64,000 nucleotides of DNA from Staphylococcus sp. IVB6214 (GTDB lineage: Bacteria > Bacillota > Bacilli > Staphylococcales > Staphylococcaceae), in NCBI RefSeq assembly GCF_025558585.1, contig NZ_CP094723.1, positions 1,674,001-1,738,000 on the forward strand, written 5' to 3'. Positions 31,760-38,966 of this stretch are shown in pieces. The position numbers and the translations under genes are program-made. A model generated the notes under the pieces. It ran no database searches and was not told the DNA's origin. It saw nothing but the letters and a program-made list of their open reading frames with translations. Numbering within the stretch: position 1 is the stretch's first letter; the number at the start of each line of letters is the position of its first letter.

Positions 31760-31802
31760 GAATTTTCGGAATATTTGATATCTATACGATTATATTGATG
31801 TA

Positions 31803-31847
31803 AAAAAGAAGTCTCGCTTACTTTGGATAAACGACACTTCTTCATAT
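31803..31847 (-). terminator. Terminator of the EVE-domain gene
   Basis: On the minus strand AGAAGTGTCG pairs with CGAGACTTCT (one mismatch), with an inner TTTA/TAAG part, and six T residues follow. Confidence 0.78.
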
Positions 31848-31849
31848 AA

Positions 31850-33214
31850 TTATTTTTTAGCTTGAATAATACGTGTATATTTCAACATTTGTTGCGTGTA
31901 TGTTTCTTTCACTTCTTGAGGCGTTAAGTATGTCACACCGACAATATGCCAATTAGGATTGAAACGATAAAATGAATCCTTATCACGACTCCATTTAATC
32001 ATACTGCCATCCTTGTTATAGCGTGGCAACGTCATCTCATAACCTTCTAACACATTGATGTACGTCTGGAAAATATCTGGATCAATGCGTTCAAACTGAT
32101 CGACAACTAAATATTGTCGGTCTGATTTTGGCATTAATTCAGTAATAAACCCTTCACGATAATATAATGCTCCTGCCTCATTCGGCAAATATCGACCATA
32201 CAACATCTCTTCAGAAAAATCTGGATGGCCGACTGTCATCACAGGTGTCGCATTCGCTTTCTCTACTAGAGAAGTCGCTGCTTTGAGACCTTCTGTTTTA
32301 TCATCAGCCAATAATAGAATAAACGGCTTTACATCCTCTTCCTTAGGCAACTCATAATCAGCTTTCACAGTTTCAAACTGTCCTTTGAGACCATCATTTT
32401 CACTCATCTCCATCATCGCATGATACTGCGTTGGTGTTAAGCTCGCAATAGCTTGCTTCGCATTTTCTTGTAAGAAATAGAGATTTTTAAGTTTGGGATG
32501 TTTATTTAATGTCATCAAACTCATCGGATGAATATCTTCAAGATAACGTATCTCAATCGCTGTACTATTCGTTCTTCCTGACTCAGGCGGGCGCGTATGA
32601 ATATGATGTGAAACTTCTGCACGCCCTACAATTGATTGATTCATATATTTGTTATACACCACAATCTGGTCGCCAACTTCAAGCTGTGTGTAGTGATGAT
32701 AGCCATTTCGCTTAATGCCATTACGCGTATGTGTATAAATCGTATACGTTTCACCCGGTTCAAACGTTTCTGTTTCAGCCATAAAGAAATAACGTGGGAT
32801 CGTAACGTCCCCAGTCCCAAGTCCTTTTATTAATTCGAACTCATCATAAGAAATTTTGTTGAACAGTGTCTCTTTCATATTGTTCATGCGAAATTCTAGC
32901 GCTTCACTACGCTTTAAATACTCTGTTGTTAAAGGCTTGAATGTTTCATTAAACTTAAATTGAACGTGAATTTTATTCTGTGCACCTGTTGTGACACTGA
33001 TGATTTCACCCCATCCAAGTAATCCGGCATCTGTTTGCACTTGATAAAAGATAACTTTATCTCCTACTTGTGCTTGCTTAAATGCACGAAATCCTTGCGT
33101 CGGATTGAATTGTGCACCTGATTCAAAGACAGTCGTTTGTCCTACTAACGGTTCATTGTGATTCCATCTGTTATAACCACAATTTAGCCAAAAGTAATTA
33201 GTTTCTGCAGCCAT
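31850..33214 (-). CDS. EVE-EVE protein with a degenerate McrB-like AAA+ domain
   Basis: Protein of 454 residues. Residues about 5-130 look like an EVE/PUA-like domain (NYFWLNCGYNRWNH, GDKVIFYQV, GWGEI); such domains bind modified bases in DNA or RNA. Residues about 140-270 look like a second one (RYFFMAE, GDQIVVYNKY, VGRAEV). Residues about 290-454 follow the McrB GTPase pattern: GHPDFSEEMLYGRYLPNE, YREGFITE, YLVVDQFERIDPDIFQTYI, WHIVGVTY. The Walker A glycines are missing (LLLADDKTEG) and Walker B ends in DQ, not DE, so NTP hydrolysis is unlikely. No McrC or nuclease gene is adjacent. AAGGAG precedes the ATG. Role unknown; see the findings. Confidence 0.7.
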   Translation of the reverse strand: MAAETNYFWLNCGYNRWNHNEPLVGQTTVFESGAQFNPTQGFRAFKQAQVGDKVIFYQVQTDAGLLGWGEIISVTTGAQNKIHVQFKFNETFKPLTTEYLKRSEALEFRMNNMKETLFNKISYDEFELIKGLGTGDVTIPRYFFMAETETFEPGETYTIYTHTRNGIKRNGYHHYTQLEVGDQIVVYNKYMNQSIVGRAEVSHHIHTRPPESGRTNSTAIEIRYLEDIHPMSLMTLNKHPKLKNLYFLQENAKQAIASLTPTQYHAMMEMSENDGLKGQFETVKADYELPKEEDVKPFILLLADDKTEGLKAATSLVEKANATPVMTVGHPDFSEEMLYGRYLPNEAGALYYREGFITELMPKSDRQYLVVDQFERIDPDIFQTYINVLEGYEMTLPRYNKDGSMIKWSRDKDSFYRFNPNWHIVGVTYLTPQEVKETYTQQMLKYTRIIQAKK

Positions 33215-33345
33215 GGTATATGATTCTCCTTCACCACATAGTTATCTTGTTCATTATAAGTGTTTATAGTTTAAACAACAACAGATTTTCTAGAGTTTCT
33301 TATGCGTGTATAATAAATTATGTCCAGTTCACAGACATACAATCT

Positions 33346-33576
33346 TTAAACTATTTGCATCAATCCAGCGATTACTGGAAAAGCATTAATTAAAATGCCA
33401 CCTAACTTTAGCATATGACTAATATCAGAGTTGGGTAATGTCCATAAAGTCGCAATTATTCCCAACATGCCAATTATGACTGGAAATACGAGCGACGGGA
33501 AAAGTGGCACTTCAAAAAATATACAAGCGCCTGACAAAATGCCACAAACAAGCGCAATATACAGTCCGATTTTCAA
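33346..33576 (-). CDS. Small membrane protein
   Basis: Protein of 76 residues that is almost entirely hydrophobic, with three likely membrane segments (about 5-22, 27-45 and 55-75). I do not recognise a family. The start is TTG at 33576 with a strong AAGGAGGG seven bases upstream, which supports that it is a real gene. It begins 28 bp after the GntR-type regulator on the same strand and is probably cotranscribed with it. Confidence 0.7.
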   Translation of the reverse strand: MKIGLYIALVCGILSGACIFFEVPLFPSLVFPVIIGMLGIIATLWTLPNSDISHMLKLGGILINAFPVIAGLMQIV

Positions 33577-37170: not shown

Positions 37171-38966
37171 TTAAAAAAGGAAGTCCATTTTTTGTGGTGG
37201 GCAGATAATAAAAAGTAACTAATTTTATTTTTAACTTAATCATAACATGTAGTCATCTCTACATTCATTTAAGCGTACAGTTTAATTATTAATTGTGCGC
37301 TTTTTCTATACCATCATTTCTTTAATACTCGCTTGCCAAGGCGCCTCACTTCAACTAATTTTGGCTTTATTGAATAAAAGAAGCCAAAATGGATTTTCCG
37401 TTCGGCTTGTTGCCTTAGGTGTCTCGTATTAGAAATGATTTTAGATACACATCTCTAAGTGTGTTAGGACATATTAGATAGCGATTACTACGTAATATAT
37501 TTATGCAGCGTTATTTATTAGTAAACTATCCTTTTTACGTCGTTGATATAGCTTAAAAATAATCAGTATCCTTGCCTTGAAGTTATTAAAGTTTCGATAG
37601 CCATATGATACACGTTTAATAAGCTTAATTTTATTATTGATACCTTCAATCGCTCCATTGTTTAACTTAGGGTGTTTAATTGTTGAATAAAGGATATACT
37701 CGTATTTTTTATAGAACCGAATGACACGCCAAACACCACGTGATACATGCTTCTTTTCAACACTCATTAAAGTTTCTTTGAAACGTAACCAATCACATTG
37801 TTTTAATGCTTCTCGAAGGTGATGAACTAACATATATGTGTCATAGAGCTGCTGATCAAGATTTAATAGATACTCTAAAATATCTCTTGATGTCGTATAC
37901 GTTTTGAAGGACTTCGACCAAAAGTATTCATAGCTGTTGATATCTTGTCTGTCAGAAAGGAAAAGTTTCCAGTGTTTTTTCATTTTCGTGTAATCTGTTG
38001 ATGACTTATAGCGACAAGTATTCATTATAGAAATACGTTGCTTATTAAGTTCACGGTTAAGGTGCTGAACAATGTGAAAACGATCAAAGATTAAAATCGC
38101 ATTCGGGAATACTTCATGAATGAAGTTAATGTAGGGTTCATACATATCGGCTGTGACCGTTTTGACAGCTAATCGTTCACGACGATCAAAACGATAGAAG
38201 TACTCTTTAAGTTTGTGAATACGTCTATCTTCTAAGATATCGATAATCTGATTCGTTTCATTATTTATAAACAGAAAACTCATCGCTGTTGTCACATTTT
38301 TAACGCTTTTAAATTCATCTATGGAGAGATGTTTAGGCAATCCAGATGAAGGTTTTACTATTAATGATTGTGAGATATGGTGAATACATCTCTTAACTGT
38401 GCTTGGTGAAACACTACAATCATTAGCAATGTCTATCTCAGACTGTACACGTGTGAGTTTGTCCTGAATCGCTAATTTCACACGATTAGTAATAAAGCAA
38501 TTACTATCAACAATGTTTGTTTGAGCCGTAAAAGTCTTTAAACAATGTAGACACTTAAAGCGTTCTTTCGCTAAATTAAGATAAACATTAGACTCTTGAG
38601 ATTTTAATAGTGTTAAACGCGAAACACGTTTACCGTGCTTATGTATTTGTCCGTCATTGACACAACCACACTTCATACATGCCTTTGGTGTATAAGAAAG
38701 TGTTCCATAAACAACCGTAGAAAGCTGACCACGCACTTCTACATCTTCTTCCACTTTAAGAACTTGAATATTTTCATCTTTTATTTTTAATAGTTTTAAT
38801 ATATCATTACACATAGGCGCATCATGTCTCCTCTCATTTTTTGTTTAGGCACTTAAAATTATAGAGGCATGAGCGCTTTTTTTGTATCAAAATGATTTAA
38901 AAAACAAAAAAGGGCGGGACAGCAGTTCATGCCATCCCACCACAAAAGATTAAGACCCTTAAAAAA
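37171..38966 (-). mobile_element. Complete ISL3-family insertion sequence, copy 2, with 8-bp target duplication
   Basis: The element spans 37179-38958 (1,780 bp), the same length as copy 1. It is flanked by TTAAAAAA at 37171-37178 and 38959-38966. The target was the T tract of the glmS terminator, and the duplication leaves a T tract on the glmS side. Known differences from copy 1 are one amino acid in the transposase and one base in the 3' structured region. Confidence 0.95.
37501..38814 (-). CDS. ISL3-family transposase (copy 2)
   Basis: Identical in length (437 residues) to the protein at 2793-4106 and different only at residue 353 (Glu here, Asp there). Zinc-finger Cys residues and the likely DDE triad (Asp166, Asp223, Glu390) are intact, so it should be functional. 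It is oriented so that transcription leaving the IS would run into the ABC ATPase gene; no clear terminator lies between the transposase stop and that gene. Confidence 0.93.
   Translation of the reverse strand: MCNDILKLLKIKDENIQVLKVEEDVEVRGQLSTVVYGTLSYTPKACMKCGCVNDGQIHKHGKRVSRLTLLKSQESNVYLNLAKERFKCLHCLKTFTAQTNIVDSNCFITNRVKLAIQDKLTRVQSEIDIANDCSVSPSTVKRCIHHISQSLIVKPSSGLPKHLSIDEFKSVKNVTTAMSFLFINNETNQIIDILEDRRIHKLKEYFYRFDRRERLAVKTVTADMYEPYINFIHEVFPNAILIFDRFHIVQHLNRELNKQRISIMNTCRYKSSTDYTKMKKHWKLFLSDRQDINSYEYFWSKSFKTYTTSRDILEYLLNLDQQLYDTYMLVHHLREALKQCDWLRFKETLMSVEKKHVSRGVWRVIRFYKKYEYILYSTIKHPKLNNGAIEGINNKIKLIKRVSYGYRNFNNFKARILIIFKLYQRRKKDSLLINNAA

Follow-up and report, generated by a model that had tools for sequence, protein, structure and literature searches.

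One gene of the window, by which we mean the whole 64,000 nt stretch of Staphylococcus sp. IVB6214 DNA analysed here, is on sequence comparison very probably (about 0.95) the ortholog of Staphylococcus aureus pcdA (SAUSA300_2094), and its product would act as PcdA does there, its role in the species of the window being inferred from this orthology. The function of PcdA is already published in another species, and what we add is modest and at the level of the family: across the aligned sequences the catalytic residues of the AAA+ domain appear to drift, while the surface of the first EVE domain proposed to contact FtsZ hardly changes. This pattern is an addition to the account given in the available part of the preprint PMC10602043; some of the AAA+ variation may already be visible there, as it shows a logo of the same motifs.

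PcdA of S. aureus (gene sausa300_2094) was described by Ramos-Leon et al. in that 2023 preprint, and two 2025 reviews (PMC12203958 and PMC12272431) cite, in their available parts, the PcdA work as Nat Microbiol 2024, 9:2997-3012. According to the part of the preprint that was accessible, which includes a tree of McrB proteins, PcdA was coopted from an McrB restriction subunit; it has tandem EVE domains and an AAA+ domain of McrB that lacks the helical bundle at its C-terminus, its Walker A motif is degraded, the Glu of Walker B is lost and McrC is absent. The protein interacts with FtsZ as well as with DivIVA and makes the division planes orthogonal, its rings localise before FtsZ, its deletion results in non-orthogonal division, and it slowly hydrolyses ATP and GTP (PMC10602043).

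Gene and domain organisation

The window protein has the layout of PcdA, with two EVE domains in tandem and an AAA+ domain after them (Table 1). The initial annotation of this DNA had described the same anatomy, with the Walker A motif destroyed and the Walker B Glu replaced by Gln, and in this it was right; its proposals on function are not the best reading. Pfam hmmscan of the protein gives EVE (E 3.5e-11), and by structure comparison both EVE folds are intact and similar to those of EVE and YTH readers, among them the structure of THYN1 in complex with 5mC DNA. Residues 295-454 have an AAA+ fold and align to residues 193-357 of E. coli McrB (6ut6_D), in a comparison which does not separate McrB from other AAA+ proteins such as NorQ. 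In sequence searches against solved structures the best match is 1zce, with an E of 0.023 for the single sequence and 0.012 for a profile of 18 rows, and at E up to 1 the structure-sequence matches include no solved PcdA. A Pfam scan of the 18-row ortholog alignment (E up to 1) recognises EVE in all 18 rows and AAA_5 in only seven.

In the AAA+ domain the Walker A motif is gone, D372-Q373 stand at Walker B, T428 is the sensor residue and R448 is present. The C-terminal helical lid is missing, the protein stopping at residue 454 soon after the strand 447-451. Of the features of an McrB restriction subunit, an intact Walker A and the Walker B Glu are lacking in the window protein, and an McrC nuclease partner was not found. 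The terminator-like hairpin 3' of the gene is absent from the output of a consensus terminator scan.

Table 1. Features of the pcdA region, in window coordinates.
Feature	Position	Strand	Remarks
pcdA, probable ortholog, 454 aa	31850..33214	-	ORF, family matches and published residues agree
EVE-1, residues 1-135	32810..33214	-	bears R16, E31 and Q60, the proposed FtsZ-contact residues
EVE-2, residues 136-272	32399..32809	-	
Variable linker, residues 273-294	32333..32398	-	low pLDDT, low identity to the window in Mammaliicoccus and macrococcal-type orthologs
Degenerate McrB-like AAA+ domain, residues 295-454	31853..32332	-	
Ribosome binding site AAGGAG	33226..33231	-	11 nt 5' of the pcdA ATG, read from the sequence
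Terminator-like hairpin with U tail, 3' of pcdA	31799..31843	-	fold -18.6 kcal/mol, z -6.3
Gene of 76-aa hydrophobic protein, upstream of pcdA	33346-33576	-	window copy of the small gene
ISL3-family transposase gene	37501-38814	-	PF01610, E 1.9e-49; about 4 kb from pcdA

Correspondence with S. aureus PcdA

The identification is based on residue numbering, on named close relatives and on architecture, with no sequence labelled S. aureus in the comparison. Eleven residues named in the accessible part of PMC10602043 were checked: R16, E31, Y57, Q60, K114, Y187, K253, K313, D374, T430 and R450. Of the four named relatives checked, L010 (S. schweitzeri), L017 and L031 carry the published letters at 11 of 11 positions each; when the numbering of L010 is shifted by any other offset between -15 and +15, no more than three of the eleven agree. 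The fourth, L033, has seven, its four AAA+ numbers being out of register. In the window protein all seven EVE positions carry the published residues at identical numbers, and the four AAA+ residues are found two numbers earlier, at K311, D372, T428 and R448. The window gene has in common with S. aureus PcdA, as far as the published text is available, the architecture, the lost motifs, the lack of McrC and the residues of published function, and differs from it in this shift of two numbers within the AAA+ domain. A further difference is that the Walker B Asp is followed by Gln and not by the commoner Asn, Gln being present in 21 of the 62 Staphylococcus-type sequences including that of the window.

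Residue variation across the family

All 108 loci examined gave an ortholog. Together with the window these make 81 distinct sequences, which were cut by identity into 62 Staphylococcus-type (window included), three Mammaliicoccus (L028-L030) and 16 macrococcal-type sequences, the last being a label inferred for sequences from three other genera of the family. In EVE-1, R16, Y57 and Q60 are invariant (81/81), and position 31 is E in 65 sequences and D in 16. Invariant in all 81 are also Y339, G340, G355 and T358. K114 is changed to T and Y187 to L in all three Mammaliicoccus sequences, and K253 to N in all 16 of the macrococcal type.

The Lys remnant of Walker A is kept in 49/62 Staphylococcus-type, 3/3 Mammaliicoccus and 2/16 macrococcal-type sequences. 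The Walker B Asp is D in all 65 Staphylococcus-type and Mammaliicoccus sequences and E in 14/16 of the macrococcal type; the residue following it is never E (0/81), being Q or N in the same 65 and N, D, G or H in those of the macrococcal type. At the sensor position Thr is present in 62/62 Staphylococcus-type and 16/16 macrococcal-type sequences and is replaced by C in the three of Mammaliicoccus. R448 is R in 65/65 Staphylococcus-type and Mammaliicoccus sequences and K in 16/16 of the macrococcal type. Mean identity of the macrococcal-type sequences to the window (n=16) is 48% in EVE-1, 39% in EVE-2 and 18% in the AAA+ domain, a value so low that single AAA+ residues of this group can be trusted less than those of the Walker B strand. 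In the linker, where the pLDDT of the window protein is below 50 at 275-294, mean identity to the window is 50% for Staphylococcus-type, 8% for Mammaliicoccus and 5% for macrococcal-type orthologs.

As AAA+ catalytic-site residues which are important in S. aureus vary within the family, the nucleotide step may not be general. A tentative reading, to which we would give less than even odds, is that the ATP switch of S. aureus PcdA does not belong to the core of the family, that the ancestral cooption was that of an FtsZ-binding EVE-1, and that the AAA+ domain was kept as an oligomer scaffold whose use of nucleotide varies by genus.

Distribution, selection and neighbourhood

PcdA was matched in 108 of 108 Staphylococcaceae genomes searched, in all cases without internal stops. 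An order-wide search gave matches in 109 of 157 genomes; outside the family only one of 49 matched, over residues 4-130, and full-length PcdA was found in none of these 49. Out of 398 genomes sampled from the class, 43 matched the profile, 36 of them family members and seven outside the family, and none of the seven matches covers the EVE part. Five are AAA+ proteins of other Bacilli and two are weak matches (G343 and G351) in a protein of 786-788 aa, which we take to be SecA-like; these two were rejected as relatives and attributed to chance. Among the genomes searched PcdA is accordingly restricted to Staphylococcus and close genera.

When the window gene is compared to three close species (L001-L003), dN/dS is 0.006-0.017 for EVE-1, 0.027-0.040 for EVE-2 and 0.019-0.048 for the AAA+ domain; the ratios are rough, since dS is close to saturated, and no ratio was obtained for some of the comparisons with L003, L004 and L009. 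The values point to strong purifying selection on pcdA.

At all 36 named loci from staphylococci and Mammaliicoccus a small gene lies 5' of pcdA on the same strand, separated from it by as much as about 1.6 kb. The 76-aa protein which it encodes in the window has no Pfam match at E up to 0.001 and, at E 1e-8, none among the 16 stretches of the macrococcal type (each 10 kb or less). Downstream of pcdA are found a DCC1-like gene in 35 of the 36 named loci and deoD in 30, some contigs ending early. In the 16 macrococcal-type stretches the synteny is not conserved, except for an NhaC-like gene in four.

Proposed McrB ancestry and other AAA+ relatives

In agreement with the initial annotation, McrC was not found in the window genome at E up to 0.001, and no McrC is linked to the window gene. 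Searches of this kind may overlook divergent proteins: with the Pfam EVE model this genome gave zero matches, although hmmscan of the protein itself finds EVE, and as that search missed PcdA, the absence of McrC carries the same caveat. An McrC gene is present somewhere in 19 of the 108 family genomes. It is on the same contig as pcdA in five of these (G039, G051, G097, G104 and G107), the contig coordinates placing the two genes at least 580 kb from each other, and on a separate contig in the other 14.

The only match of the order outside the family (L093) is an ordinary EVE-McrB of 802 aa; its ORF and the ORF of an McrC gene overlap. It has one EVE stretch by Pfam, AAA_5 (E 2.6e-23), an intact P-loop and the adjoining McrC (E 1.1e-34). 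This type IV restriction system has in common with the window protein the EVE and the AAA_5-kind AAA+ domain, and differs in its P-loop and McrC, of which the window gene has neither. L093 gives a useful picture of the ancestral kind of protein.

The nearest AAA+ relatives in other Bacilli (L120-L124, five genomes) match the PcdA profile over the AAA+ region with E 2.9e-11 to 7.6e-9. A separate hmmsearch with the same alignment recovered L121, L122 and L124 and not L120 and L123, which are therefore less sure relatives. The four proteins scanned (L120, L121, L122 and L124) differ from PcdA in having AAA_5 and no EVE by Pfam at E up to 0.01, and L121, L122 and L124 also in that their Walker A is intact and their Walker B reads DE(I/L)NR.

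In all five loci the AAA+ gene is followed by a gene for a protein of 423-430 aa (L120 3509-6978, L121 3046-6215, L122 3222-6291, L123 3431-6509, L124 3393-6328). This partner has no Pfam match over cut-off in the four scanned (L120, L121, L122, L124), and PADLOC, at E up to 0.01, matched it in none of the three scanned (L121, L122, L124). ORFs nearby in L121 and L124 look, by their motif, like DNA cytosine methyltransferases. The two genes possibly constitute a restriction system.

Alternative functions

The initial annotation had suggested, among other roles, a reader of modified DNA or RNA. In such a reader a modified base would be bound in the clefts of the EVE domains, with the AAA+ domain as scaffold, in regulation or in defence. 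Such a role would be compatible with that of PcdA, and the intact reader-like EVE folds, the invariant Y57 and the impairment of S. aureus PcdA by substitution of cleft residues (PMC10602043) speak for it. However, of the four residues which the available part of that preprint places in the cleft, three (K114, Y187 and K253) change between genera, the proposed FtsZ surface is steadier than the cleft, and in S. aureus PcdA localises correctly in anucleate cells (PMC10602043). With no McrC found in the window genome and nothing from PADLOC at E up to 1, we consider this reading unlikely; the ortholog works, in the published part available, through DivIVA and FtsZ. An undescribed defence pathway, also suggested, is no better a reading for a gene whose ortholog is a published early cell-division protein (PMC10602043), and a known defence system was rejected, PADLOC being negative at the threshold above and NCBIfam giving one chance match far below cut-off.

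The loss of Walker A and of the Walker B Glu, together with the missing McrC, would also fit a functionless leftover of a restriction system in decay, and the initial annotation had named a structural relic among its options. A relic would hardly be intact in every family genome and under such selection (dN/dS 0.006-0.048), which instead bears out the annotators' view that the gene is maintained; conservation and the deletion phenotype in S. aureus (PMC10602043) already refute this reading, and its probability is close to nil. Equally improbable is a catalytically silenced subunit working with McrC or a nuclease encoded elsewhere: the McrC genes present in some of the family would allow it, but pcdA is in all 108 genomes and McrC in 19, never close to it where both share a contig, and the window genome itself gave none.

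Proposed mechanism and meaning

As a PcdA, the protein would derive from an EVE-McrB restriction subunit which lost its P-loop, catalytic Glu, C-terminal helical lid and McrC partner. DivIVA, whose gene is present in the window genome, would gather at the ends of the slightly elongated cell and bring PcdA to the next division plane. There the self-associating EVE-EVE-AAA+ protein would bind unpolymerised FtsZ, probably via EVE-1, and start a Z-ring roughly at right angles to the previous septum.

PcdA is a striking and already published example of a phage-restriction protein which has become a landmark of cell division. To this the comparison of the family adds a testable point, an EVE-1 surface which appears fixed and a nucleotide pocket which appears to drift, in a protein which, by the published account as far as available, now helps round staphylococcal cells to choose their next division site.
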